DNA from: Jannaschia rubra
GTDB taxonomy: Bacteria > Pseudomonadota > Alphaproteobacteria > Rhodobacterales > Rhodobacteraceae
Reading direction: 5' to 3'
Length of the DNA stretch: 64,000 nt
NCBI RefSeq assembly: GCF_001403735.1
Contig: NZ_CXPG01000023.1
Span: forward strand, 1 to 64,000
Shown here: in pieces, positions 15,444 through 43,849 of the stretch
Position numbering within the stretch: position 1 is the first letter of the stretch
Layout: every line of letters begins with the position of its first letter
Made by a program: the position numbers and the translations under genes
Notes under the pieces: generated by a model
Databases searched by the model: none
What the model was told of the DNA's origin: nothing
Seen by the model: only the letters and a program-made list of their open reading frames with translations

Positions 15444-16216
15444 TCGCCCGACTCCGGCAGGTGTTCGGGGCGGTAGGAGCGACCCCGGATGCGCGCGCGA
15501 AGGCGCGACCAGCCGCCGTAGATGCCCCCCACCCCGACGCGCCCGCCGAGGATGGTATCGAAGGCGGCGGGGGACCGGGCCTTCGCGCGCGCGGCCAGCG
15601 CATTTGCGGTGTCCTGAAGCGCCTGTTCGAGGCGTTCGTGCGTCGCCTCGGCCGCCGGTATGGCGTCGCCGAAGGCCGCGAGTGCCTCGGGGCGTTTCTC
15701 GGACCAGAAGGGGTATTCGAGGGCCACGGGAACGGCCAGCGCCTGCGGCGCGCGCGACAGCAGGCGGGACAGGCCGCGTTGCAGTTCGACCGGCGTGCGC
15801 GGGTCGGCGAAATGGCCCTGCGCGGTCAGCCAGAGGACATGCGCCGGGTCCGACAGGATGTGGCCGCCCACGCGCAGCAGGCGCGCGGCGCCCGAGGTGG
15901 TGCCCGGCTCGATCCCGAAGATGCCGATGCGGCGCATGAAGCGGTACCGCTCCAGCGCCCGCGCCTCCATCGGGCCGAAGCTGCACCGGCCCGGCAAAAG
16001 GGCGGCGGAGAGGACGATGTAGAACGCCGGATCCCACCAGGAGGGGTGGTTGGAGAAGAAGACGACCGGGCGGTCGTCCGGCAGCGCGGGAAGCCCCGGC
16101 TCTGCCACGCGGACGGCGCGGAAGGCGCGGCGCATCTGACGCTGCATCACGCCGTCGAAGAACCGCACCATCGCGGGCGAGCGCAGCGCGACCGGATCGC
16201 CCGCGGGCCCGGTCAC
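15440..16216 (-). CDS. PlsC-type acyltransferase, CrtO-like role
   Basis: This 258-residue acyltransferase has the HX4D motif in SNHPSWWDPAFY and a second block FGIEPGTTSG. It belongs to the lysophospholipid acyltransferase fold. In this operon it probably esterifies the glycosylated carotenoid with a fatty acid, as CrtO does in staphyloxanthin synthesis; CrtO itself is a different fold, so this is functional analogy. The start is taken as GTG at 16216, which overlaps the stop of the upstream desaturase gene (GTGA). An in-frame ATG 15 codons later is an alternative. Confidence 0.78.
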   Translation of the reverse strand: MTGPAGDPVALRSPAMVRFFDGVMQRQMRRAFRAVRVAEPGLPALPDDRPVVFFSNHPSWWDPAFYIVLSAALLPGRCSFGPMEARALERYRFMRRIGIFGIEPGTTSGAARLLRVGGHILSDPAHVLWLTAQGHFADPRTPVELQRGLSRLLSRAPQALAVPVALEYPFWSEKRPEALAAFGDAIPAAEATHERLEQALQDTANALAARAKARSPAAFDTILGGRVGVGGIYGGWSRLRARIRGRSYRPEHLPESGE

Positions 16217-17730
16217 TCCGCCGCCACGCGGGCGTTCCCCCGCGCGTCGCCGTCGAGGCTGTCGGCGGCGATCCACCCGGACATGAGGGCCATGGGCATC
16301 CCCGGCCCCGGATGCGCCGACCCGCCGGCCAGGTAGAGGCCGCGCACCTGCCGCGAGCGGTTGCCCGGCTTGAAGGCGCCCAGCACCTTGCCGTGGCTCG
16401 CCAGCCCGTAGATCGCGCCGTCGAGGACGTTGTAGCGGTCGTGGATGTCCTGCGGCGTCAGGACGCGCTCGGTGACGATGCGGCTCTCGATATCCTCCAT
16501 CCCCGCGCTGCGCCCCAGCTTGTCGAGGATGGTGCGGCGGTAGTCGGGCAGCATCTTGGACCAGTCCTGCCCCGGATGCAGGTAGGGGGTGTGGACGAGG
16601 ACATAGAGCGCCTCGCCCCCCTCGGGCGCCACATCCGGCTCGGTGCGGGCGGGGGCGGCGACATAGGCGGTCGGGTCGGGGGCCGGGCGCCCCTCGTCGT
16701 AGATGGCGCCGAACTCCTCCTCCGGGTCGCGCGAGAAGACGAAGTTGTGATGCGCGAGGTGGTCGTAGGCGCGGTCGAGCCCGAGGTAGAGCACGACGCC
16801 GGAGCACGCGGGCTCCCGCTTGCGGCCCCTCGCGAAATCGCGCCAGACGTCGCCGCCGATCAGGTCGCGGTAGGTGCGGACCGAATCCATGTTGCTGACG
16901 ACACGGTCGAAGGCCATCCGCTCGCCCCCCGCGACCACCGCGGTGGCGCGGCGGCCCTCGGTCTCGATCGCGGTGACGTCCGCGCCGGTGCGGATGTCCA
17001 CGCCCAGCTCCTCCGCCAGCCGCGTCAGCGCGAGGGGGACGGCGCGGGTGCCGCCCATGGGATACCAGACGCCCTCGCCCAATTGCATCTGCGCGATGCC
17101 GCAGAGGACGGCGGGCGAGGCGAGGGGGGAGGAGCCGACATACTGGATGAAGTGCTCCAGCATCTGCGCCACGCGTTTGTCGGAGATGTCGCGCTTGATC
17201 TGGCCCGCGACGGTGCGGTGCATCCGGAGCGCCATGACGTCGCGCAGCGTGTCGAGCGTCATGTTCTGCTTGAGGTCCATCGTGTCGCGCAGGTCTTCCA
17301 CCGACTTCCAGAAGAAGAACCTGTCGGAGACGTCCGACAGGCGCGAGGCCACGGCCATGAAGCGGTCGAAGCCTTCGGCCGCGTCGGGGGCCAGCTTCGC
17401 GATCTCTGCACGGGAGGCGGCCATGTCGTCGCGCAGGTCGAGGACGGTGCCGTCGTCGTAGAAGCAGCGCCACTGCGGGTCGAGGCGCCGCAGGTCGAGA
17501 TAGTCGGCCATGTCGCGCCCGGCCTCGGCGAACACGCGCTCCAGCACGCGGGGCATGGTCAGGATGGTGGGGCCCATGTCGAAGCGGAAGCCCCGATCCT
17601 CGTGCAGCGCGGCCTTGCCGCCCAGCCAGTCGTTCCGCTCCAGAAGCGTGACCTTGTGGCCCCGCGCGGCCAGCGTGCAGGCGGCGGCCAGACCGCCCAG
17701 CCCCGCGCCGATGATGCCGACGTCGCTCAT
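16213..17730 (-). CDS. CrtN/CrtP-type carotenoid FAD oxidoreductase
   Basis: This 505-residue flavoprotein has the Rossmann FAD motif GIIGAGLGGLAAACTLAARG at its N-terminus. The carotenoid-desaturase C-terminal block is LYLAGGSAHPGPGMPMALMS. It resembles CrtI/CrtN-family proteins. As the second such gene in the operon, it is a candidate for CrtP, the oxygenase that converts terminal methyl groups of diapolycopene to aldehydes. The CrtN/CrtP split cannot be proved from sequence alone. Start and stop overlap both neighbours by 4 nt. Confidence 0.85.
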   Translation of the reverse strand: MSDVGIIGAGLGGLAAACTLAARGHKVTLLERNDWLGGKAALHEDRGFRFDMGPTILTMPRVLERVFAEAGRDMADYLDLRRLDPQWRCFYDDGTVLDLRDDMAASRAEIAKLAPDAAEGFDRFMAVASRLSDVSDRFFFWKSVEDLRDTMDLKQNMTLDTLRDVMALRMHRTVAGQIKRDISDKRVAQMLEHFIQYVGSSPLASPAVLCGIAQMQLGEGVWYPMGGTRAVPLALTRLAEELGVDIRTGADVTAIETEGRRATAVVAGGERMAFDRVVSNMDSVRTYRDLIGGDVWRDFARGRKREPACSGVVLYLGLDRAYDHLAHHNFVFSRDPEEEFGAIYDEGRPAPDPTAYVAAPARTEPDVAPEGGEALYVLVHTPYLHPGQDWSKMLPDYRRTILDKLGRSAGMEDIESRIVTERVLTPQDIHDRYNVLDGAIYGLASHGKVLGAFKPGNRSRQVRGLYLAGGSAHPGPGMPMALMSGWIAADSLDGDARGNARVAAE

Positions 17731-19274
17731 TCCGCAGCCTCCCTTTCCCTGTCGGGTATCGCATAGTCAGCGGGGTCGAGCCCCATGTCGTCGCCCGCCA
17801 GCCGCGCGGCGATCTTGGCGCTTTCGAAGATCGTGGGCAGGCCCGACCCCGGATGCGTGCCGCCCCCCGTCAGATAGACGCCGTCCACGTCCTCGAACCG
17901 GTTGCGCGGGCGGAAGTGGAGCATCTGCCCCAGGTTGTGCGCCAGGTTGAAGGTCGCGCCGCGGTGGATGCCCATCTGCGCCTGCCAGTCGGCGGGGGTC
18001 AGCATCCGCTCCGTCCGGATGCGCGGCCGGATGTCGTGGCCCGACAGGCGCGACACGCGGTCGAGCACCTTCTCGCGGTAGGCGGGGGCGATGGCGGGCC
18101 AGTCCACCTTGCCCGAGAGGTTGCCGGTGGGCACGAGGATGTAGAGCGTCGAATGCCCCTCCGGCGCCAGCGTCGGGTCGGTCACGCCCGCGTTCTGGAC
18201 GTAGATCGTGGGTTCCTCGGGAGCGAGGCCCGCGTCGATCTCGCGGATGTTCTCCTGATAGTCGTCGGACATGAAGATCGTGTGATGGGCCAGATCGTCA
18301 AGCCGCCCCTCGATGCCGAGATACAGCATGAAGGTCGAGCAGGAGTACTTCTTGGCGGCGATCCTGGCATCGGTCCAGCGCTTGCGCCGGGCATCGGGGA
18401 TGAGGCTGGGGATCGTGCCGGCGAAGTCGCCGTTCACGACCACGGCATCCGCCGGGATCGTGCCCGTTTTCGTGCGCACCGAGGTCGCGCGCCGGCCGTC
18501 GAAGCCGATCTCCTCCGCCGGCTCCGACAGGCGGATGTCGACGCCCATCTCGGTCGCGATCCGGGCCATCGCCTGCGGAATGGCGTTGCAGCCGCCGATG
18601 GGATGAAACACGCCGTGGCCGTATTCGACATGGGCGATGATGGTGAACAGCGACGGGCACTTGAACGGCGACATGCCGAGATATTTCGACTGGAAGCTGA
18701 AGGCGAGCCGCAGGTCGGGGTCGCGGAACCAGCGCTTCAGGTCGGTGTCCACGCTGGACCAGGGGCGCAGGTTCGGCAGGGCGGCCAGCATGTCGCGCCG
18801 CATCAGGTCGCCCAGACCCAGAAAGGGGCGTTGCAGGATCGGGATGAAGCTGTCGAACTTGGTCGCGTTGGTTTCAAGATAGCGGCGCACGTTCGGCGCG
18901 TCTTCGGGCGACAGGCGCGCGGCCTCGGCCGTCAGGCGGTCGATGTCGGCGGTCGCGTCGAAGGTGCGGCCGTCGTCGAACTGCAACCGGTACATCGGGT
19001 CGAGACGGCGCAGGTCGACCTCTGCGTCGAGGTCGCGCCCGCAGGCGGCGAAGATCTCGCGCAGGACCTGGGGATAGAGATAGAAGGTCGGACCGTAGTC
19101 GAAGGTGAAGCCGTCCTGCGTGAACCCGGCGGTGCGCCCGCCCACGCGGTCCGACCGCTCCAGCACGGTCACATCGGCCCCCGCCGCGCGCAACAGCATG
19201 GCGGAGGCGAGCCCACCCGGACCGGCCCCGATCACCACGGCGCGACGTCCCACCGGATCGTTCATCATGTTCAC
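17727..19274 (-). CDS. crtN: CrtN-type dehydrosqualene/squalene desaturase
   Basis: The 515-residue FAD protein has VVIGAGPGGLASAMLLRAAG at the N-terminus, FHPIGGCNAIPQAMARIA in the middle, and VYLTGGGTHPGSGLPTIFES at the C-terminus. These are the hallmarks of bacterial CrtI/CrtN desaturases. With hpnCDE next door, the substrate is likely squalene, converted stepwise to coloured diapo-carotenes. The start is GTG at 19274, overlapping the stop of the DUF2141 gene (GTGA); an ATG two codons later is possible. It lies second in the operon. Confidence 0.85.
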   Translation of the reverse strand: MNMMNDPVGRRAVVIGAGPGGLASAMLLRAAGADVTVLERSDRVGGRTAGFTQDGFTFDYGPTFYLYPQVLREIFAACGRDLDAEVDLRRLDPMYRLQFDDGRTFDATADIDRLTAEAARLSPEDAPNVRRYLETNATKFDSFIPILQRPFLGLGDLMRRDMLAALPNLRPWSSVDTDLKRWFRDPDLRLAFSFQSKYLGMSPFKCPSLFTIIAHVEYGHGVFHPIGGCNAIPQAMARIATEMGVDIRLSEPAEEIGFDGRRATSVRTKTGTIPADAVVVNGDFAGTIPSLIPDARRKRWTDARIAAKKYSCSTFMLYLGIEGRLDDLAHHTIFMSDDYQENIREIDAGLAPEEPTIYVQNAGVTDPTLAPEGHSTLYILVPTGNLSGKVDWPAIAPAYREKVLDRVSRLSGHDIRPRIRTERMLTPADWQAQMGIHRGATFNLAHNLGQMLHFRPRNRFEDVDGVYLTGGGTHPGSGLPTIFESAKIAARLAGDDMGLDPADYAIPDREREAAE

Positions 19275-19678
19275 TGAAAATACCTCATGTTGACGGTTAT
19301 GGTGCCGTCGCCTTCCACGGCAAGCGCCGCGTCGCCGAAACGGGGTGGGCCGCGGCGCATCGGCGCATCGCGCGAGAAGCCGAGCCCTTCGAGCGGCAGC
19401 AGCCGCAGGCGGCGGTCGAGCTTGTCGTTCGCGTTCTCGTCGTGGATCGCCTGCACCGCATAGATGCCGGGGGGCAGCCCGCGGATCGTCGCGGCCCCCT
19501 CGGACGCGGGCGCGCGGGCGGTGAACGGGCAGTCGGCGGTGGTGAACCGTGCCTCGTCGCAGGCCGCGACGAGGATCTGGCCTTCGGTGGAGCGCAGGTT
19601 CGCGATCTCGACGCGCAGGTCCGCCGCGACGGCCGGAACGGCGACGGTGAGCAGCGACAGGGTCAGAATGGTGTGCAT
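19271..19678 (-). CDS. DUF2141 periplasmic protein
   Basis: This 135-residue protein has a signal peptide (MHTILTLSLLTVAVPAVAAD) and a DUF2141 beta-sandwich with GIYAVQAIHDENANDKLD, the family core. The family is common beside carotenoid genes in proteobacteria, but its function is unknown. It is the first gene of the minus-strand crt operon, overlapping the next start by 4 nt. It lies 108 nt from the divergent hpnC start, so the crt and hpn promoters share that gap. Confidence 0.85.
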   Translation of the reverse strand: MHTILTLSLLTVAVPAVAADLRVEIANLRSTEGQILVAACDEARFTTADCPFTARAPASEGAATIRGLPPGIYAVQAIHDENANDKLDRRLRLLPLEGLGFSRDAPMRRGPPRFGDAALAVEGDGTITVNMRYFQ

Positions 19679-19786
19679 CGGCTTGGCCCTTTCCTCATCT
19701 TACGGCAGACCTAGAACAACGGTTTGAGGAATCACGCGAAGACGGCGGGTGATCGCGCGGAATTGCGCCGCGGAGGGGAGGGCGTC

Positions 19787-20623
19787 ATGGGAGAGACCGT
19801 TGCCGATCGCATCCGCGATGCCGGGACCGAGAACTTTCCGGTCGCATCGCGCCTGCTGACGGGGCGCAAGCGCGGGGCGGTCATGGCCTTCTATCGCTAC
19901 GCCCGCGCCGCCGACAACGTGGCGGACGATGCCGATCTGGCGGCCGCCGTGAAGCTTTCCGAGCTCGACGCCTTCGAGGCGGGGCTGGACGGCGACCCGG
20001 ACGGTCGGCCGGAGGCGCTGGCGCTGCGCTCGGCGCTGGCCGACCGACCGGAGGCCCTGGCCGAAGCGCGCCGTCTGCTGGGAGCCTTCCGGCAGGACGC
20101 GCGGGGTGCCTGCTATGCCACGTGGGACGACCTGCGGGCCTATTGCGCGATGTCCGCCGACCCGGTGGGGCGGTTCCTCCTGGCGCTCCACGGCGAGGAC
20201 AGGCGCGTGGCGGCGCTGTCGGACCCGCTGTGCACCGCATTGCAGGTTCTCAACCACCTTCAGGACCTGGCCGAGGACCGTGCCCGGTTGGGCCGGGTCT
20301 ATCTGCCCGCCGACTGGCTGGAGGAAGCCGGCGCGCGGCCCGAAGATCTGTCGGAGCCGCGCCTCACCCCCGAACTTTCCCGCGTCGTGACCCGGACGCT
20401 CGACACCTGCGCCACGCTCCTGAACCGCGCCGCGCCCCTGCCGGGGGCGATCCGATCGCGGGGGCTGCGCGGGCAGGCGGCAGCGACGCTGTGGCTCGCC
20501 CGGCGGCTTTGCCAGCGGTTGCGGCGGGGCGATCCGTTGGCCCGTCGCGTGGCGCTGTCGCGGGCGGATGTCCTGCGCGCGGGCGCCGTGGGCCTGACCC
20601 ATGCGGCGCGGAGGCCCCGGTGA
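19787..20623 (+). CDS. hpnC: Squalene biosynthesis protein HpnC
   Basis: This 278-residue trans-isoprenyl diphosphate synthase-fold protein has a first aspartate motif DNVADD (D43-D47) and a second region HLQDLAEDRARLGRVYLP. HpnC releases diphosphate from presqualene diphosphate and adds water to give hydroxysqualene. The start at 19787 is preferred because GGAGGGGAG precedes it by 6 nt; an upstream in-frame ATG at 19724 would add 21 unconserved residues. It is the first of three genes that together convert farnesyl diphosphate to squalene, and it lies opposite the crt operon. Confidence 0.9.
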   Translation: MGETVADRIRDAGTENFPVASRLLTGRKRGAVMAFYRYARAADNVADDADLAAAVKLSELDAFEAGLDGDPDGRPEALALRSALADRPEALAEARRLLGAFRQDARGACYATWDDLRAYCAMSADPVGRFLLALHGEDRRVAALSDPLCTALQVLNHLQDLAEDRARLGRVYLPADWLEEAGARPEDLSEPRLTPELSRVVTRTLDTCATLLNRAAPLPGAIRSRGLRGQAAATLWLARRLCQRLRRGDPLARRVALSRADVLRAGAVGLTHAARRPR

Positions 20624-21501
20624 CGGGTCTGTCGTCGGCGGACCGGGCCAGCGATCGCCGGGCGGACCGGGCGGTGGTCCGCTCCATCGTCGCCGCCTCC
20701 GGATCGTCCTTCGCCTTGGGAATGAGCATCCTTCCCCCCGTCCGGCGCGACGCGATCCGCGCGGTCTATGCCTTCTGCCGCATCGTCGACGACATCGCGG
20801 ACGGCGATTCCCCCATGGGCACGGACCCGGCCGCCTGCGCGGCCGCGCTCGACGCCTGGGAGGAGGAGATCGTGCGCGCCCACGGCGGCATCCCGCGCAC
20901 CGCCGTCGGCGCCGAGCTTGCGCGCGCCATCGACCGCCACGACCTGCCGCAGGCGGAGTTCCTGCTGCTGCTCGACGGGATGCGGATGGACGCGGCCTGC
21001 ATCGTCGCCCCGAGCGGGGAGATGCTGACCGCCTATATCCGCCGGGTCGCGGGATCGGTCGGCGTCCTGTCGATGCATTGCTTCGGCGCCTGGCGCGGCC
21101 ATTCGTCGGAGCGGTTCGCCCTGTCGCTGGCGCGGGGCCTGCAACTGACCAACATCCTGCGCGACGTGGCCGAGGACGCGCGCCGCGGGCGTCTCTACCT
21201 GCCCGCGCATGTCCTGCGGGGGGCGGGTCTGCCCGACGATCCGAAGGCGGCCGTGGACCATCCGGCCCTGCCGCGCGCCCGTGCGATCCTCGGCCGCGAG
21301 GCGCGCGCCGCCTATGCGGAGGCCGCGCTGGAGATCCCGTCGCACAGCCGCGCGCGGCTGCTGCCCGCGCTGATGATGATGGGGCCCTACGAGCGGCTGC
21401 TCGGCCGGATGGAGGACGACTGGACGGTCGTGCCGCCCCGGCGGTCCGGCGTGGGCAAGCTGATCGACGGTACGCGGCGCGTCCTCGCGCGGGGGGGCTG
21501 A
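20620..21501 (+). CDS. hpnD: Presqualene diphosphate synthase HpnD
   Basis: The 293-residue protein has the motifs VDDIAD (D57-D61) and NILRDVAEDARRGRLYLP, typical of squalene/phytoene synthase folds. HpnD condenses two farnesyl diphosphates to presqualene diphosphate. The start is GTG at 20620, overlapping the hpnC stop (GTGA). Its neighbours hpnC and hpnE make the assignment firm, although HpnD and phytoene synthases share motifs. Confidence 0.9.
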   Translation: MTGLSSADRASDRRADRAVVRSIVAASGSSFALGMSILPPVRRDAIRAVYAFCRIVDDIADGDSPMGTDPAACAAALDAWEEEIVRAHGGIPRTAVGAELARAIDRHDLPQAEFLLLLDGMRMDAACIVAPSGEMLTAYIRRVAGSVGVLSMHCFGAWRGHSSERFALSLARGLQLTNILRDVAEDARRGRLYLPAHVLRGAGLPDDPKAAVDHPALPRARAILGREARAAYAEAALEIPSHSRARLLPALMMMGPYERLLGRMEDDWTVVPPRRSGVGKLIDGTRRVLARGG

Positions 21502-36295: not shown

Positions 36296-37879
36296 CTATT
36301 CCGCCAGCCACCGCAGCAGCGCCACCTCCTGCGGCGAAAGGTCGGGGTGCCAGAGGTCGACGATCAGGACGACGCGCGGGTCGGGGGAGTCGTTGCGGAC
36401 GTCGTGAAAGAAGCTGTCGTCGAAGACCGTGCAGCGGCCGGTCCGCCAGGTGCCGGCCTCGCCGGCCACGGTCATCGTGCAGCCCTCGGCCGGGATGTCG
36501 ATGCCGAGGTGCAGGCGCAGCCGGGTGTTGGTCGCGCCGCGGTGCGACGCGATGCGGGTGCCGGGCGCGAGACGCGAGAAATAGGCCACGCCCGCCCCCT
36601 CCACCGCGGCCCCATGCGCGTCGAGGATGCCGGCCGTCACCGGACAGGCGGCGCGCACGTCGTCGCGCGGGCCGTCCTCTCCGTGCAGGAACAGGACGGT
36701 CCAGCGGCCGGTGCGGGCGATGTCCTCGGACTCGTCGGCGAAATCGGCGGGGTGCAGGGCGGCGAACTCCTCGGCGATGGCCCCGGCGGCCTCCTCCAGC
36801 GCGCGGGCCACGGGAACGGCGGGGGCATCGTGCCAGGGCCGGGCGGACAGCCCCGGGTAGATGCCGACGCCGGGGCCGTGCGGTCCGGGGTCGGCCTTGC
36901 GCCGCGCGACATAGGTGCGGAACCGGGGCGGCACCCTGATGTCGCCGCCCTCGGGCAAGGGGGCGGCCAGCAGGTCGCGCGGCGAGGCCGTCACCCCGTC
37001 GAACCCCGCCTCCGGCCAGTGATCCGACCCCGCCAGCCGCAGCCATTCCGACAGGCCCAGACGCTTGTCCCAGGGCGTGCCCCAGGCCCGCAGTGCCGCC
37101 GCCCCCCGTGCCATCGCGGCGCGCCCGGCCGAACGATCGCCCGTGGCGAGGTGCAGGAGGCCGCGCAGGATCGCAGGCTCCCCCACGCAGGGCAGCAGAC
37201 GCATCGCCGTGTCGAGCCGGGCGGCCGCGCCGGCCCTGTCCCGCGCGATCACGCGCAGCGCTGTGTCATAGGCCTCCAGCCCTTCCTCCTCGGCGCGGAC
37301 GGTCACGCGGGTGCGGCCGCGGTCCAGCACGGGGGGCACGACCTCCGCCCGCGGCACCGCCAGCGCCAGCAGCTCCGACGCGCGGGCCAGCCAATGCGTC
37401 GGGCCGCCGTCGCGCAGGCAGGCCTGGTCGGCCACGTTGGCGAGGTAGAGCACCAGCAGGTCCCCGATGTCGCGCGGCCCGAGGCGCAGCATCGGCCCCC
37501 CGCGCCGGTCGGGCAGGCGCAGGACGGCGGTCGGCGCGGGTCGTTCGGACACCGCCTCGAACAGCGCCACGCGCGACAGCCCGCCGAACAGGTGGACCAG
37601 ACGCTCCGCCCGCTCGCCCAGCAGCGCGCGCAGCGGGGCGCGGTCGCCGGGGTCGAACAGCGCGGCCTCGTGCCCGTCGGTGGAATAGACGTTATGCGCC
37701 AGCCCTGCCAGGCACAGGCGCTCGGGCTGGTTCCAGCCGCTCAGGATGGCATGGGTGTTCACCAGGTGGCGCAGCACGCTGCCGCGCCCGTGGGCCGCGC
37801 GGTCGGCGCCGCGATCGGCCAGGGCGGTGACGATGGGGCCGATGGGCCGCGTGCGGGGGGCGTCGAGAGTCTGGGTCAT
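36296..37879 (-). CDS. HD-like domain fused to aspartyl/asparaginyl beta-hydroxylase
   Basis: The 527-residue protein has three parts. Residues ~30-165 look like an HD-type helical domain (RHLVNTHAILSGW, LAHNVYSTDGHE; candidate metal residues H38, H43, H62, H70), similar to DUF6817 proteins. Residues ~195-270 are TPR-like. Residues ~335-515 form an Fe(II)/2-oxoglutarate aspartyl/asparaginyl beta-hydroxylase domain with H446 (ASHRGATNTRLRLHLG), R453/R455 and H492 (SFFHDVRNDS). It is the last gene of an operon with two radical SAM enzymes, a diiron-type oxidase and a short peptide. It may hydroxylate that peptide, which is inference. GGAG lies 8 nt before the ATG. Confidence 0.75.
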   Translation of the reverse strand: MTQTLDAPRTRPIGPIVTALADRGADRAAHGRGSVLRHLVNTHAILSGWNQPERLCLAGLAHNVYSTDGHEAALFDPGDRAPLRALLGERAERLVHLFGGLSRVALFEAVSERPAPTAVLRLPDRRGGPMLRLGPRDIGDLLVLYLANVADQACLRDGGPTHWLARASELLALAVPRAEVVPPVLDRGRTRVTVRAEEEGLEAYDTALRVIARDRAGAAARLDTAMRLLPCVGEPAILRGLLHLATGDRSAGRAAMARGAAALRAWGTPWDKRLGLSEWLRLAGSDHWPEAGFDGVTASPRDLLAAPLPEGGDIRVPPRFRTYVARRKADPGPHGPGVGIYPGLSARPWHDAPAVPVARALEEAAGAIAEEFAALHPADFADESEDIARTGRWTVLFLHGEDGPRDDVRAACPVTAGILDAHGAAVEGAGVAYFSRLAPGTRIASHRGATNTRLRLHLGIDIPAEGCTMTVAGEAGTWRTGRCTVFDDSFFHDVRNDSPDPRVVLIVDLWHPDLSPQEVALLRWLAE

Positions 37880-37903
37880 GGGTCTGTCTCCGGGTCAGGC
37901 GGG

Positions 37904-38596
37904 TCATTCGGCCGCCATGGGTCCGACGGCGCGGGCGTGGATGGTTTCGAGAATGGTCATGCCTGCATCGACGGTGTGCAGCCCGCTCAGCGCCATGACC
38001 TTCTCGTGCTCCGGCCGCAGCGGCAGGCGGTCGATCAGGTCGATCAGGTCGCGGCGGTGGTGGACGTCGAGAACCTCGTGCCGGGCGATGGCGCGGAAGG
38101 CGGAGCGGGGCCAGCCGGTCAGCTCCTCCAGCCGCCGGGCAAAGCCTTCGGGCGGGTGATAGGCCTCGATCGCGGCGATGTGGCCCAGGAGCGCGACGGG
38201 ATGCACATGCGCGATCCAGTAGTATTGCGCGCCCACCATCTCGGCCACGGCGGGCGGGGGAACCTGCGCAAGCGCGGCCGCGGGGTCGTGTCCGGTGGCG
38301 GCCAGATCCTCCAGCAGCCAGACGTCGTGGCCCGTCTCCTCCGGGATGTGGTGCGCGAAATAGGCGTCGAGTTCGACCCCCAGCGGGTCGTCCGGCCCCA
38401 AGGCCCGCGCCGCCCGCTGCGCCGCCTGCATCAGCGGCACGGCGGAGCGCACGACCCCGTGCATCATCGACAGGTAGACGGGATAGACCAGCCGCGCCTC
38501 CGGTCCGGTCCACAGCTTGCGCGCCTGCGCGGAAAAGGCCCGGTGCACCAGATCCAGACGCGCGATCAGGCGTTCGCTCGGGGTTCGACGGGTCAT
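37904..38596 (-). CDS. Heme-oxygenase-like diiron oxidase (HDO-type, PqqC/TenA fold)
   Basis: This 230-residue all-helical protein has metal-type motifs: HHIPEETGHDVWLLEDL (H82-D91), YYWIAHVHPVALLGHIAAIE (E144 near the end) and RHEVLDVHHRRDLIDLID (H173, D177, H180). Such E/H/D sets in a heme-oxygenase-like fold mark non-heme diiron oxidases and PqqC-like enzymes. The ATG overlaps the stop of the second radical SAM gene (ATGA). It probably oxidises the peptide or an intermediate. The family is called 'iron-containing redox enzyme' in many genomes; the reaction here is unknown. Confidence 0.75.
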   Translation of the reverse strand: MTRRTPSERLIARLDLVHRAFSAQARKLWTGPEARLVYPVYLSMMHGVVRSAVPLMQAAQRAARALGPDDPLGVELDAYFAHHIPEETGHDVWLLEDLAATGHDPAAALAQVPPPAVAEMVGAQYYWIAHVHPVALLGHIAAIEAYHPPEGFARRLEELTGWPRSAFRAIARHEVLDVHHRRDLIDLIDRLPLRPEHEKVMALSGLHTVDAGMTILETIHARAVGPMAAE

Positions 38597-39603
38597 TGCG
38601 GGGTCTCCTGTCCCAAGGCGGCCATGGCCGACATCAGGCGGTCCGGCGGGCCTCGGCCCTCCATCCGGTCGAGCGCCTTCCAGCACAGGTCGCAGTTGTT
38701 GGCGAAACATGCGTCGCCCAGATCGTTCAGGCGGGGATGCCGCGTCAGCGCGCCGAAGCCGCTGTCGCCGATCACCCGCAGAAGGGGGTCGTCGTGGAAC
38801 GCGCGGGCCGCCTCGGCGAAGCCCTGCGCGGTTTCGGCCCGGCGGCGCAGGCGGGCCGGCCCCCGCCCCATCAGCACGTCCTCGTTGCAGCAGCCGACGA
38901 CCGTGCCGTCGTAGCGGACCATCGGATTGCGGACGAGGGTGCACGGCCCGAAGTCGGCGCCCGGCGTGTGCGCGGTCGGAAAGAACAGCGCCGCACCCCG
39001 CCCGTTGGCCAATGGCGCGTTCAGGTTCACCTCCGCCCGCGCCGGCCACTCCGGGCCGAACGCGCGGGCCAGCAGATCCTCGATGCGCCGCCGCGTGGTC
39101 GCGTCGTCGAGCCCCTGCACCACGAGCCACGCGCCCGAGGTCGCCACCTGCCGGGCCGCACGGACGAAATCGTCGCCGGTGACGTGGCTCATGTGGAAGG
39201 CATCGGTGCTGAGATAGACGGTCGTGCTCTGCTCCAGCACGCGGCGGGTCCAGGCGGGGGTGCGGGCCTGCCGGGCCCAGACGCCGCTGGTGAAAAGGAC
39301 GATGCGCTTGCCCGCCGCCGCGAGCCGGTCGCACGCCAGCGTCAGGCCGCGCCGCTCGACGAAGGGCTCCCCGCCCGAGAATGCGACCACGTCGAAGGCA
39401 TCTTCCCGCGCGATCCAGTCGAGGATGCGGCCGAACAGGTCGAAATCGGCGATGGTCGGGCTGTCCCCGCGCGAGTCGACCGAGCAATGCGCGCAGCCCA
39501 CCGGGCAGCGGTCCGTCAGGAACAGCAGGATCGACCGACCCCGGCGGGCGCGCACACGCTCGATCGCCGCGTGGTCGAGCCTGGGGGACGCCGCGCGGGT
39601 CAT
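38593..39603 (-). CDS. Radical SAM protein B of the peptide-maturation operon
   Basis: The 336-residue protein has the radical SAM cluster motif DRCPVGCAHCS (C33, C37, C40) and AFSGGEP for SAM binding. The C-terminal third has further cysteines: C221, the pair C238-C239 in VGCCNEDVLMG, then C299, C304 and C307 in ACFANNCDLCWKAL. This resembles SPASM/twitch auxiliary iron-sulfur domains of peptide-modifying enzymes. Its start overlaps the first radical SAM gene by 4 nt. It shares the CGN/CCN-E/D-DV motif with protein A, so the two are probably paralogues with different jobs. Confidence 0.85.
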   Translation of the reverse strand: MTRAASPRLDHAAIERVRARRGRSILLFLTDRCPVGCAHCSVDSRGDSPTIADFDLFGRILDWIAREDAFDVVAFSGGEPFVERRGLTLACDRLAAAGKRIVLFTSGVWARQARTPAWTRRVLEQSTTVYLSTDAFHMSHVTGDDFVRAARQVATSGAWLVVQGLDDATTRRRIEDLLARAFGPEWPARAEVNLNAPLANGRGAALFFPTAHTPGADFGPCTLVRNPMVRYDGTVVGCCNEDVLMGRGPARLRRRAETAQGFAEAARAFHDDPLLRVIGDSGFGALTRHPRLNDLGDACFANNCDLCWKALDRMEGRGPPDRLMSAMAALGQETPQ

Positions 39604-40652
39604 GCCGGACGCCCCAGTTGCGACAGCCCCGCAAAGCGCGGGATGCCGTGGCGGCGCAGGAACGCCTCGCCGCCGCCGCCGCGCAGCAGGGCCTGCACCC
39701 CCCGCTCCAGCACGCGGGTGGCCGGGCGGTCCATCAGGGCGGACAGGTCCGTCGCTGCATTCGCGTCGAGCGCCATGCACGCCGCGCAATAGCCGTCGCA
39801 CCCCTGCCCCAGCCGACGTGCCGTGGCGCGCGGGCCGAACAGGCGGATCGCCCGCAGGAGGGCGGAGCGTTCCGTTCGCGCGCGGATCGTGGGCCAGCCG
39901 TCGGTCGCGGCGTGGCCCAGCAGCAGATGCGGGGGCCTGCGGTCGAAGACGTCGTCGTTGCCGCAGGCCGACACGGTGCCGTCGAAGCCCACCACCGGCC
40001 AGGCGGCCATGGCGCAGGGGTTCGCGGCGGCGGTGTCGGCGCCCTCGCCTTCGAGGGGCGCCAGCCAGTCGCGCGCTCGGCCGAAGGGCGCGAGCGCGTT
40101 GACCACCATGGGCACGGCGTCGCCGAAACGCCGCCGCACGTCGCCGATGAAGGTGCCGAGCCAAGGGTCGTCGGCCCCCTGCCCCACCAGGTGCAGGCTG
40201 ACGTCGACGCCCCGGTCCATGATCGCGCCCAGGGTGCGGAACAGACGGTCGCGCGGCACCTCGGGTTCGTGGAAGACGTCGAAGCTGGTCGAGAAGTGGT
40301 CGACCGCGTCGACGGCCCGCAGGATCGGCGGCGGGATGCGGTCGGCCCGCGCGAAGAACAGACCCGACAGGACGCTGGTGCGCGTGCCGACCTTGCGCGC
40401 CGTGGATGCAAGCGCTTGCACGAGGTCCGGGCGCAGCAGCGCCTCGCCCCCCGACAGGGCCAGGATCTCCGGTCGGTCGTCGCGGCGGAAGGTGCCGACG
40501 AAGCGGGTGAAGATCTCGGCTGGGGCCTCCTCGCTTTCCATCGTCGAGCGGGTCGAGCAATGGGCGCAACTGAGTGGGCAGCGCCGCGTCAATCCGATCG
40601 AAACGCCGCCGCCGATATCGTTCCGCATATCCAGTATCTCGGCAAGATGCAT
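39600..40652 (-). CDS. Radical SAM protein A of the peptide-maturation operon
   Basis: The 350-residue protein has LTRRCPLSCAHCS (C25, C29, C32) and ILALSGGEALLRPDLV. C-terminal cysteines C213, C230 (SACGNDDVF), C285, C289 and C292 (GQGCDGYCAACMAL) look like an auxiliary iron-sulfur cluster domain. It is the first enzyme gene after the short peptide gene, 157 nt away. The start at 40652 has AAAGGA about 7 nt upstream; an in-frame ATG at 40697 would add 15 unconserved residues. By analogy with SPASM enzymes it should modify the precursor peptide through a 5'-deoxyadenosyl radical. Confidence 0.85.
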   Translation of the reverse strand: MHLAEILDMRNDIGGGVSIGLTRRCPLSCAHCSTRSTMESEEAPAEIFTRFVGTFRRDDRPEILALSGGEALLRPDLVQALASTARKVGTRTSVLSGLFFARADRIPPPILRAVDAVDHFSTSFDVFHEPEVPRDRLFRTLGAIMDRGVDVSLHLVGQGADDPWLGTFIGDVRRRFGDAVPMVVNALAPFGRARDWLAPLEGEGADTAAANPCAMAAWPVVGFDGTVSACGNDDVFDRRPPHLLLGHAATDGWPTIRARTERSALLRAIRLFGPRATARRLGQGCDGYCAACMALDANAATDLSALMDRPATRVLERGVQALLRGGGGEAFLRRHGIPRFAGLSQLGRPA

Positions 40653-40760
40653 TGCGCGTCCTTTCGCGGCGTTCCGAATTGGCACGAGCCTTCCCATTGC
40701 CGGCGGACAATGCCGCCGGAGTCAGGCCCCTTCGCGTTTTCAATTCATGCGGTCATTCGC

Positions 40761-40801
40761 GCGCACGCCCCGTCGCAATCGGGCGCGGAAGGGGCGTGCG
40801 C
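40761..40801 (-). terminator. Hairpin between the precursor peptide gene and the enzyme genes
   Basis: GCGCACGCCCC and GGGGCGTGCGC are a perfect 11-bp inverted repeat with a 19-nt spacer, 8 nt past the peptide stop. No T-run follows. In peptide natural-product operons such a hairpin usually lets most transcripts stop after the precursor while some read through to the enzymes. Confidence 0.65.
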
Positions 40802-40809
40802 CGGTCGTC

Positions 40810-41025
40810 CTACCAGACGAATCCACCCACCACGTCGGCCGCGGCCTTCAGGTTGTCGGGTAGGTTCTTGTTGAGCTTGGCCTTCACGGACTCAAGCACC
40901 GCAAGCTCATCGTCGTCGAGCAGCGAGATCTGGTTCTGCAGGTCCTCGTTCAACGCGTCGATCTGCAGACCGCTCTTGCGGACGCGGACCATCCGCGCCG
41001 TCGTCATTTCTCTCTTGTCGGCCAT
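40810..41025 (-). CDS. Short RiPP precursor-like peptide ending GGFVW
   Basis: The 71-residue peptide begins MADKREMTTARMVRVRKSG. It has an acidic helical middle (LLDDDELAVLESVKAKLNKN, residues ~35-54) and ends LKAAADVVGGFVW. It has no signal peptide and no cysteine. A charged helical leader followed by Gly-Gly and a tiny aromatic tail fits a ribosomally made precursor. It lies directly upstream of two radical SAM genes, a diiron oxidase and a hydroxylase. The start at 41025 has GGAG at 9 nt; an upstream in-frame ATG at 41073 is less likely. The peptide family is not recognised and the processed product is unknown. Confidence 0.72.
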   Translation of the reverse strand: MADKREMTTARMVRVRKSGLQIDALNEDLQNQISLLDDDELAVLESVKAKLNKNLPDNLKAAADVVGGFVW

Positions 41026-41253: not shown

Positions 41254-42166
41254 GGCCGAGCAGGGCCAGCACCTCGGCCCGGTCGGGCATGGAGGGCGCG
41301 GTGCCGGGCCGCGTCACGCTGATCGCGGCGGTGGCGCAGCCGAAACGGGTCGCCTCCTCCGGGTCCATCCCCTCCGCCACGGCGGCGGCGAACCCGCCGT
41401 TGAAGGCGTCGCCCGCGCCCGTCGTCTCGACCACGGGGCCCGCGTCGAAGGCGGGGACGTGGATGCTGCGGTCGGCCGAATGGAACAGCGCCCCCTGCGC
41501 GCCGAGCGTCAGGATCGCGGCGCGGCGCACGCCCTGGGCCAGCAGCGCGCGGCCCGCCCGGCGCGCGGTGTCGAGGTCGGTCACGGCCAGGCCGGTCAGC
41601 GCCTCCGCCTCGGTCTCGTTGGGGGTGACGTAGTCGCAGAGCGCCAGCATGCCGTCCGGCAGTTCGGCCGCCGGCGCGGGGTTCAGCACGGTGATCGCGC
41701 GCCCCTTCCGCGCGACGGTCAGCGCGCGCAGGGCGGCCTGCATCGGTTGTTCCAGCTGGGTGACGAAGACGCGTGCCGATCCGATCAGCCCCGCGTGCTG
41801 GTCGATAAAGGCCGCGTCGATCTCGGCGGCGGCGCCGGGGGCGATGATGATGGCGTTGTCGCCCGACCCCTCCTCGATGAAGATGTAGGCGGCGCCGGTG
41901 GGCGTCTCGCCCCGTTCGACGGCGGGGACGACGCCCGCGGCGGCCCAGGTGTCCATCGCCATGTCGCCGAAGGTGTCGCGGCCCAGCTTCGACAGGAAGG
42001 TCACGCGCCCGCCCGCGCGCGCGGCGGCGACGGCCTGGTTCGAGCCCTTCCCGCCGGGGCCGAGGGCGAACGACCGCCCCAGGATCGTCTCGCCCATGCG
42101 CGGCTGGCGGTCGGCGCGATAGGCGGTGTCGGCGACGAAGACGCCCAGGATCACGATGTCACTCAT
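41249..42166 (-). CDS. rbsK: Ribokinase-like PfkB sugar kinase
   Basis: This 305-residue PfkB kinase has the ribokinase motifs MGETILG, LGPGGKGSNQAVAAARAGG, VTPNETEAEAL and the catalytic TTGAGDAFNGGFAAA (aspartate base). The N-terminal sugar-binding motif, normally GSxNxD, reads GVFVAD here, so the asparagine is replaced and the sugar may not be ribose. It overlaps the FucU/RbsD gene by 8 nt. The partner mutarotase and a MalK-type ATPase suggest a role in sugar uptake and phosphorylation, possibly of an L-fucose-related sugar. Confidence 0.87.
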   Translation of the reverse strand: MSDIVILGVFVADTAYRADRQPRMGETILGRSFALGPGGKGSNQAVAAARAGGRVTFLSKLGRDTFGDMAMDTWAAAGVVPAVERGETPTGAAYIFIEEGSGDNAIIIAPGAAAEIDAAFIDQHAGLIGSARVFVTQLEQPMQAALRALTVARKGRAITVLNPAPAAELPDGMLALCDYVTPNETEAEALTGLAVTDLDTARRAGRALLAQGVRRAAILTLGAQGALFHSADRSIHVPAFDAGPVVETTGAGDAFNGGFAAAVAEGMDPEEATRFGCATAAISVTRPGTAPSMPDRAEVLALLGR

Positions 42167-42605
42167 CCGGCCCGATGACCCCCTTGCGCAGCATGATGCA
42201 TCCGTAGAACCGCCGCTCGCCCGTCTGGATCACGGCATAGGCCCGGCGGGCGAGGTCGTAGAAGGCGAAGCGTTCGATGCCGACCATCGCGCGCGTCTCG
42301 CCCGTGGCGGCGATCTCCTGCTGGACCTCGGCCTGCACGCCGGGCACGTCGTCGGGCGCATCCACCACCTGCATCCGGCCCGCGAAATCCTCGACGAAGG
42401 TATCGAGCGGCAGGACCGACAGGACCGCGCGCGCCACCTCGCCCATGGGGCGGTCGATCCGCAGCAGATGGCCCAGCACCGTGTCCTGCGCGATGGCGTC
42501 GGAGGGAAAGTTGGTATCCGCCAGGATCAGCATGTCGCCGTGGCCCATGGCGCGCAGCGCGCCCAGAACCTCGGCGTTCAGGATGGGGTCGATCCCCTTG
42601 AGCAT
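42159..42605 (-). CDS. fucU: FucU/RbsD-family sugar mutarotase
   Basis: The 148-residue protein begins MLKGIDPILNAEVLGALRAMGHGD, with the catalytic-site histidine, followed by ILADTNFPSD. It ends ERRFYGCIMLRKGVIGPDE. FucU proteins interconvert alpha and beta anomers of L-fucose; RbsD does so for ribose. The wording favours FucU. It overlaps the kinase gene by 8 nt and lies 12 nt after the ABC ATPase gene. Confidence 0.87.
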   Translation of the reverse strand: MLKGIDPILNAEVLGALRAMGHGDMLILADTNFPSDAIAQDTVLGHLLRIDRPMGEVARAVLSVLPLDTFVEDFAGRMQVVDAPDDVPGVQAEVQQEIAATGETRAMVGIERFAFYDLARRAYAVIQTGERRFYGCIMLRKGVIGPDE

Positions 42606-42617
42606 GGCCTGTCCCTT

Positions 42618-43664
42618 TCAGATGTCGAGCCGCGCGCCGCTGGCCTCGTCGAAGATGTGGACGCTGCCGGGAACCGGGCTCAGGTGGATGGTTTCGCCGG
42701 GCCGGACGGCGGGGCGGTCGCGGGTGACGGCGGTGACGTCGCGGTCGCCCAGACGGGCGATGACGTGGGTCTCGGACCCTGTGGGTTCGACCACCGAGAC
42801 CGTGGCGGCCATGCCGCTGTCCGACAGCACCAGATGTTCCGGACGCATCCCCAGCGTCACCTGCCGGCCCGGCGCCACGCCCGGCACGGGCAGGACGGCG
42901 CCCCCGGTGGCGACGCCGCCCTCCTCCCCCCGCCCCGGCATCAGGTTCATCGAGGGCGAGCCGATGAAGCCCGCGACGAAGGTGTTCGCCGGCCGGTCGT
43001 AGAGGTCCAGCGGCGCGCCGATCTGCTCGATATGCCCGCCCTGCAGGACGACGATCTTGTCGGCCATGGTCATCGCCTCGATCTGGTCGTGGGTGACGTA
43101 GACGGTGGTCGTGGACAGCCGCTGGTGCAATTCGCGGATCTCGGCGCGCATCTGCACGCGCAGCTTGGCGTCGAGGTTGGACAGGGGCTCGTCGAACAAG
43201 AACACCTGCGGGTCGCGCACGATGGCGCGGCCCATGGCTACCCGCTGCCGCTGACCCCCCGACAGGGCGCGGGGATGGCGAGAGAGATAGGGCGTGAGGC
43301 CCAGCACCTCGGCCGCGCGGGCGACGCGGGCGTCGATCTCGTCGCGCGGCATGTTCCGCATCCGCAGGGAAAACGCCATGTTCGCCGCCACCGTCTTGTG
43401 GGGGTAGAGCGCGTAGTTCTGGAACACCATGGCGATGTCGCGTTTCGCGGGCGGCAGGTGGTTCACCACGCGGTCGCCGATGGCGATGGTGCCGCCGGTC
43501 ACGTCCTCCAGCCCCGCGATCATGCGCAGAAGGGTGGATTTGCCGCAGCCGGAGGGGCCGACCAGCACGACGAACTCCCCGTCGGCGATGTCGATGTCCA
43601 GCCCGTGAATGACCTCGACCGCGCCGTATGCCTTGCGCAGGTCCCTGATCGTGACTTCGGCCAT
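42618..43664 (-). CDS. Sugar ABC importer ATPase (MalK/UgpC-like)
   Basis: This 348-residue ATPase has Walker [12 protein letters not shown]-loop [12 protein letters not shown], signature [14 protein letters not shown], Walker [16 protein letters not shown] and a C-terminal OB-type regulatory domain ([11 protein letters not shown]). It energises a carbohydrate importer. No permease genes are adjacent; a divergent binding protein lies 185 nt away. An upstream in-frame ATG at 43685 adds seven residues; 43664 is preferred because the family begins MAEVTIRDL and GGGGGA lies upstream. Confidence 0.92.
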
Positions 43665-43849
43665 CCGTCCCCCCGGTTTCCCCACGGGCGACGCTAGCGG
43701 GGCCTGCCGGTCCTGTCACGCCCTCCTTGACAGGCGGGGGGCGGGCCAGTGACTGTCTCAGGGCCGGCCGCGCGGGGAGGACGCGGGGCGCGGCATCCGA
43801 TCAGGTCAGGCCCCGGAGCGGGCCCCGTCACGGGAGGGACGCGAGACCC

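Follow-up and report, generated by a model that had tools for sequence, protein, structure and literature searches.

The closest described counterpart of the system considered here is the epipeptide EPE/YydF of Bacillus subtilis, with the radical S-adenosylmethionine (SAM) enzyme EpeE (YydG) and, in the excerpted text of PMC12871923, the operon epeXEPAB. Cys223 of EpeE is the proposed hydrogen-atom donor, and the hydrophobic residues Val36 and Ile44 are its targets (excerpt of PMC8326336). Two radical SAM proteins can serve a single pathway, as in thuricin CD, where the thioether-forming sactipeptide maturases TrnC and TrnD form a tight complex and where the excerpt of PMC12093266 does not mention a heme-oxygenase-like diiron oxidase (HDO). 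A heme-oxygenase-like protein, VarO, acts in the pathway of thiovarsolin, a ribosomally synthesized and post-translationally modified peptide (RiPP; excerpt of PMC6511847). Here we describe an operon of Jannaschia rubra in which a short peptide gene lies beside genes for two EpeE-like radical SAM proteins (RS1 and RS2), an HDO and a fused aspartyl/asparaginyl beta-hydroxylase (AspH). It lies in a stretch of 64,000 nucleotides (contig NZ_CXPG01000023.1, positions 1 to 64,000), hereafter the window. Its identity as a RiPP operon is well supported, and the peptide, the two radical enzymes and the HDO very probably yield a modified peptide. The features, in order of transcription, are as follows.

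41025-40810, minus strand: precursor peptide gene, 71 aa; 49.6 bits against NCBIfam NF045560 (cut-off 30)
40813..40827, minus strand: proposed core GGFVW, the C-terminal pentapeptide; Gly at -5 and aromatic at -1, from 46 peptides
40755..40812, minus strand: GC-rich stem-loop directly 3' of the peptide gene, 58 nt, -32 kcal/mol, z -2.57; a possible attenuator, weak and not claimed
40652-39600, minus strand: RS1, EpeE-like radical SAM protein, 350 aa; CxxxCxxC plus C213, C230, C289 and C292, with G231 at the EpeE donor position
39603-38593, minus strand: RS2, EpeE-like radical SAM protein, 336 aa; CxxxCxxC plus C221, C238, C239, C304 and C307
38596-37904, minus strand: HDO, 230 aa; conserved E86, E87, H90, E144, H173, D177 and H180
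37879-36296, minus strand: DUF6817-AspH fusion, 527 aa; a local accessory outside the conserved cassette

A sequence-only reading of this region had placed a 71-residue peptide, two radical SAM proteins, an HDO and a fusion protein on one strand, and the open reading frames (ORFs) and junctions it gave are correct: RS1 and RS2 overlap by 4 nt, as do RS2 and HDO, and 24 nt separate HDO from the DUF6817-AspH gene. Its count of five coupled parts after the peptide must be reduced to four enzyme genes. A GGAG ribosome site lies 9 nt 5' of the peptide ATG, and a gap of 157 nt leads from the peptide gene to RS1. Pfam assignments above the curated cut-offs were obtained for all four enzymes: Radical_SAM for RS1 and RS2, Haem_oxygenas_2 for HDO, and DUF6817 with Asp_Arg_Hydrox for the fusion. 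Epipeptide biosynthesis uses one radical SAM enzyme and a different leader, whereas two related radical SAM proteins and an HDO are found here. The EpeP peptidase and EpeAB exporter have no counterpart among the immediate flanking genes.

The peptide provides the first line of evidence. It ends in ADVVGGFVW and matches the NCBIfam model NF045560, which describes an "aroma-sacti" domain, with an E value of 3.4e-13; no Pfam family reached its cut-off, and within NCBIfam the only other match was a weak one to NF045559. In a set of 46 peptides that includes the window's, and from which two spurious hits in locus L082 were dropped before the tails were counted, Gly occupies position -5 in 45 and the final residue is Trp in 28, Phe in 14, Tyr in three and His in one, so that 44 of 46 have both ends of a G-x-x-x-aromatic pattern. 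Position -2 is Val, Leu, Phe or Ile in 43 of the 46, -4 is mostly Gly or Ala (36/46) and -3 is variable. The two exceptions are L022, with an extra Phe and no Gly at -5, and L031, in which His is last. Among 30 representatives less than 60% alike, Gly at -5 and an aromatic at -1 each occur in 29, and in their gapped alignment the Gly column and one leader Glu are invariant. The tail VGGFVW is identical in the window, in the alphaproteobacterium Sphingorhabdus (L015) and in a betaproteobacterial metagenome-assembled genome of the Burkholderiales (L016), despite enzymes that are only 43-52% identical to the window's; the RS1 proteins of these three form one starred clade in the tree. Of the 11 pairs for which the ratio of nonsynonymous to synonymous substitution (dN/dS) could be calculated over the last 64 codons, 10 fall below 0.5, consistent with purifying selection on the peptide; the 12 pairs compared, for which counts are small and some of which share a sequence, comprise nine at 0.18-0.48, one at 0, one at 0.89 and one that is identical. 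Conservation of the peptide C-terminus beside the enzymes, which the sequence-only reading had proposed as a check, is therefore borne out at the protein level.

The name of the leader family raises the question of whether the radical SAM enzymes form thioethers, as in sactipeptides. Five of six relatives' peptides do match the StsA-related model NF045559 weakly, at 18-35 bits against a cut-off of 75, but a further family peptide that was scanned gave no match, and the window peptide scores 16 bits, far below that cut-off although its leader exceeds the NF045560 one. Cysteine occurs within the last 25 residues in just 2 of the 46 peptides, and no gene for a RiPP recognition element is seen among the operon genes. 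For the window peptide, which has no cysteine, thioether formation is excluded, and as an account of the family we regard it as highly improbable.

The second line of evidence is the recurrence of the enzymes with such peptides. A scan for RS2 motifs, using one genome per species and limited to close relatives, recovered 20 loci, from Alphaproteobacteria, Betaproteobacteria, Actinobacteria and Chloroflexota; the full set considered here comprises 36 loci (L014-L033 and L068-L083), of which L024 and L078 are different stretches of a single contig that were counted separately. RS1 is present in 33, RS2 in 35, HDO in 30 and an NF045560-type peptide in 28, and all four occur together in 27 of the 36. 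Genes were counted as together if they fell anywhere in the stretch retrieved for the locus, which allows spacings of about 7 kb between RS1 and RS2 in L082 and about 3 kb between HDO and RS2 in L022. L014 and L080 have RS2 only, L079 and L081 have RS1 and RS2 only, and in L073 and L076 the three enzymes are present with no NF045560-type peptide found in the stretch. NF045560 peptides were found in 18 of 20 genomes (17 above the cut-off) and in none of 14 control genomes; the former are the window's own genome and 19 chosen through RS2, so this rate is conditional. The genes are also tightly arranged: with best-guess starts, 14 of 15 non-window loci show an overlap of RS1 with RS2, and in 13 of the 15 HDO begins no more than 80 nt from where RS2 ends. 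Loci with all three enzymes were used for these counts and for the identity correlations given below, L032, a near copy of L025, being left out. Because the four-gene set recurs in several phyla, we consider the association to be beyond chance. By sequence comparison, leader-type NF045560 peptides with a G-x-x-x-aromatic end are thus co-conserved with a predicted EpeE/YydG-type pair and an HDO. This co-conservation and the conserved tail support the claim of the sequence-only reading that the set makes a modified peptide, and the peptide accompanies the enzymes in most loci.

Several observations on individual loci stand beside these counts. Nine loci hold two to four precursors each. In six, a major facilitator superfamily (MFS) exporter and a precursor share one uninterrupted frame, either as a fusion or with an in-frame internal start (L025 and L032 8706-10271; L068 7240-8745; L069 11230-12960; L070 4986-6782; L071 6837-8546). 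L033 is a distant relative with a radical SAM gene pair and two ORFs ending SGGFIY, which were excluded from the peptide counts. The orphan RS2 of L014 (6989-7981), from Noviherbaspirillum denitrificans, is 53% identical to the window's; its stretch contains no RS1, HDO or peptide, and a run of N is located some 300 nt downstream of the gene. Small peptides with an Os1348/Franean1_4349-type NHLP leader share stretches with RS2-type genes and end in GGGYY (L080 8892-9170), GGSYY (L024 6483-6740) and PAYY (L076 17055-17267); one of the three exceeds the NF038399 cut-off, and they may represent a second kind of leader, likewise followed by an aromatic tail. Near the cassette there are also an adenylate-cyclase/AAA protein (L023 11393-14968), a BTAD activator of the Streptomyces antibiotic regulatory protein type (L020 9136-10971) and, in Nonomuraea jabiensis, a stand-alone lantibiotic dehydratase C-terminal-type protein (PF14028; L028 11933-12790).

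The RS2 profile matches EpeE/YydG over approximately the full length (E 1.6e-19; profile positions 16-311 of 329), and EpeE is its closest solved structure. The second Cys of the CC pair reads Ala in the EpeE C223A chain, and this identifies C239 of RS2 as the counterpart of EpeE Cys223. This donor Cys is kept in 35 of 36 sequences, and the eight RS2 cysteines in 35 or 36 of 36, the match in L077 stopping early. EpeE is the best match for RS1 as well, by profile (E 2.5e-15) and by the fold of an AlphaFold2 model (predicted local distance difference test, pLDDT, 90.3; template modelling score, TM, 0.60-0.65). Four RS1 cysteines are kept in 34 of 34 sequences and the three of CxxxCxxC in 32, with two rows gapped there. 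The extra C-terminal cysteines noted in the sequence-only reading are present in both proteins, and we presume from their twitch pattern that they hold an auxiliary cluster. At position 231, corresponding to the donor, RS1 has Cys in 19 of 34 sequences and lacks it in 15, including the window, where the residue is Gly. Because the donor Cys is often missing, RS1 may be a partner of RS2 or a radical enzyme with another outcome, and the tight complex of TrnC and TrnD offers a known example of two radical SAM proteins for one pathway. Across 29 rows, Cys at RS1 position 231 appeared to be linked to Val at -2 when kinship was disregarded (Fisher p 5e-4), but kinship-independent pairs gave no support and the link was not used. 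Matches to the PqqE model TIGR02109 were 28 and 19.5 bits for the two radical SAM proteins, against a cut-off of 381.

The main rival for the radical chemistry is a crosslink instead of an epimerisation, in which RS1 and RS2 would link positions -5 (Gly) and -1 (aromatic) to close a five-residue macrocycle that HDO then finishes. Such a product would fit a core in which only these two residues are nearly fixed, at constant spacing, while those between them vary. The window RS1 would have to end its radical in some other way without a hydrogen-donating Cys, and the cysteines presumed to bind the auxiliary cluster are conserved. Against this, RS2 almost always keeps the epimerase donor Cys, the closest solved relative of both proteins is an epimerase, and two of the 46 peptides break the pattern, L022 at its Gly and L031 at its end. 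We therefore regard the crosslink as rather unlikely, and whether RS2 is an epimerase-like enzyme acting on the C-terminal pentapeptide as close to evenly balanced.

The third enzyme is a predicted HDO. Its AlphaFold2 model (pLDDT 94.9) has the heme-oxygenase-like fold, and Foldseek places it nearest to 3dde, CADD and UndA, followed by bacterial heme oxygenase, TenA, HrmI and PqqC. The comparison with PqqC drawn in the sequence-only reading is accordingly a loose one. Residues of ligand type are kept throughout the family (E86, E87, H90, E144 and H173 in 31 of 31 sequences, D177 and H180 in 30 of 31), and HDO thus carries the putative Glu/Asp/His metal ligands of its superfamily. VarO, UndA, CADD and HrmI have this fold and diiron ligand-type pattern in common with it; thiovarsolin biosynthesis relies on YcaO-TfuA where radical SAM enzymes are found here.

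The last gene has a different standing. The sequence-only reading called it an HD-like/AspH fusion: its AspH part is confirmed by Pfam (PF05118, 131 bits against a cut-off of 22.6) and aligns with human AspH 5apa through the catalytic region (E 1.3e-28), where we take the catalytic His positions to lie, and the part called HD-like is formally DUF6817. No AspH was found beside the cassette in any of the 36 related loci, and among 289 genomes of the class a match to the fusion at E ≤ 1e-30 occurs in its own genome only. The suggestion that all five genes are conserved together thus holds for the peptide, RS1, RS2 and HDO; a conserved five-gene set is ruled out, the conserved unit has four genes, and AspH is a local addition to the operon in this organism.

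The distribution of the cassette bears on what kind of product it makes. Genomes with a match to the RS2 alignment, the centre genome being included in each group, number 1 of 385 in the window's class, 1 of 158 in its order, 11 of 297 in the Streptomyces himastatinicus family, 5 of 200 in the Nonomuraea order and 1 of 160 in the order of L016 (all at E ≤ 1e-40), and 2 of 201 in Chloroflexota and 1 of 199 in the Sphingorhabdus family (both at 1e-30). The 19 further genomes from the same genus as the window yielded no good match (one was weak, 3.4e-4), and the pfkB-side flank is kept in several congeners, for example with 83% identity over 41259-43700 in one of them, among the matches listed. 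Because RS2 matches are few while this flank is conserved, the operon is regarded as rare, patchy and accessory. Spread on plasmids found no support: a search of 72,556 plasmid records with RS2 gave nothing at E ≤ 1e-10.

An intracellular redox cofactor similar to pyrroloquinoline quinone (PQQ) or mycofactocin, in place of a secreted peptide, deserves consideration in this context. The combination of a radical SAM enzyme and peptide, a heme-oxygenase-fold protein such as PqqC and a C-terminal aromatic residue as in MftA resembles these pathways, PqqE and PqqC themselves being only distant matches to the window proteins. The VGGFVW tail is constant in all three proteobacterial peptides found, and no exporter or peptidase occurs among the few annotated neighbours of their operons, the test being confined to those neighbours: PfkB and BKACE in the window, RNase E and a lipase-like protein in L016, and a lytic transglycosylase in L015. 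In Actinobacteria, however, MFS exporter genes accompany the cassette (eight ORFs confirmed, three and five in two scans) together with up to four variable precursors, as is typical of secreted peptides. The rarity of the cassette also argues against a cofactor, and no dedicated partner enzyme was identified. A cofactor is possible given the constant proteobacterial tail in three cases without an obvious exporter, but we consider it improbable; the actinobacterial clusters with exporters favor a secreted product.

We consider it probable that the operon makes an uncharacterised RiPP-family product through the action of the EpeE-like pair and HDO on the C-terminal pentapeptide. The conserved middle of the peptide would serve as leader and the pentapeptide, here GGFVW, as core. 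At a hydrophobic residue of the core, RS2 would abstract the C-alpha hydrogen and C239 would deliver one to the opposite face, leaving a D-residue. RS1 may complex with RS2, either positioning the peptide or acting on this pentapeptide in a further radical step. HDO, using O2, would then oxidise the modified C-terminus by desaturation, hydroxylation or decarboxylation, and the AspH fusion may beta-hydroxylate the peptide, for instance at Asp64. Neither PfkB nor BKACE is a protease or an exporter, so cleavage of the peptide, and its export if it occurs, would depend on genes located elsewhere. A further and more tentative proposal is that these systems form a new class of RiPP, characterised by an EpeE-like pair in a heterocomplex together with an HDO, all acting on a fixed pentapeptide of the G-x-x-x-aromatic type. 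RS2 would epimerise, RS1 would end its radical otherwise, by dehydrogenation or by crosslinking Gly to the aromatic residue, and HDO would complete the C-terminus.

Several points weigh against the epimerase-based account of the family. The 36 loci are not all independent and include near copies (L025/L032, L018/L020 and L069-L071); eight of them lack an NF045560-type peptide and six lack HDO. One of the RS2 scan motifs holds the CC pair, and Cys conservation in the 20 loci recovered by the scan is therefore partly selected. The alignment gives no clear RS2 equivalent of EpeE Asp210, and the YydG model TIGR04078 scores 44.4 bits with RS2 and 36.6 with RS1 against a cut-off of 300. Because RS2 falls so far below that cut-off, a different radical reaction on its fold is possible. 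Pairwise identities are correlated over 16 rows (r = 0.91 for RS1/RS2, 0.80 for RS1/HDO and 0.73 for RS2/HDO), values that carry no background control. The link of AspH to the cassette is its position in the operon, not co-conservation.

The operon is bordered immediately by a PfkB (ribokinase-like) gene and, at its opposite end, by a convergent BKACE gene; neither of these two encodes a protease or exporter, the family-model scan having been confined to them. GC content of the operon genes is similar to that of the neighbors, with the peptide gene lower at 0.606, and a promoter scan found none. An intercistronic attenuator is not claimed: the whole peptide-RS1 gap reaches only z -1.2 to -1.5, a control region scored z -3.7, and hairpins in relatives are inconsistent (z -4.0 in L016, -2.35 in L072, a weaker -1.67 in L017, absent from L083 and L031). 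A second copy in the same genome reduces to a fragment of 330 nt, 96% identical to RS2, at a contig end (L034 7859-8188, contig C27, corresponding to window 39192-39521); its mismatches pile up toward the end, and it is probably an assembly or low-quality-end effect. Elsewhere in the window, carotenoid genes (15662-21425; crtI-type and phytoene synthase) are about 76% identical to Palleronia plasmid genes.

The sequence-only reading knew of no named pathway with this combination. That stands for the open-licence PubMed Central literature, in which term searches found no description of the family (most subscription journals lie outside this corpus), but NCBI curators already model the leader as NF045560, and by that model the family is already recognised bioinformatically. 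As far as checked, a G-x-x-x-aromatic core together with two EpeE-like enzymes and an HDO is undescribed. The locus represents an undescribed RiPP family that is rare, spread over several phyla, and provided with a precise and testable core motif, with several members in Streptomyces and Nonomuraea, where products may be obtainable. HDO chemistry on a ribosomal peptide gains a second system here, and the natural pair of EpeE-like enzymes, one with the donor Cys and one without, allows one to ask why a C-alpha radical ends in epimerisation or in some other way. If the new-class proposal is true, radical and diiron chemistry would be combined on one five-residue core.

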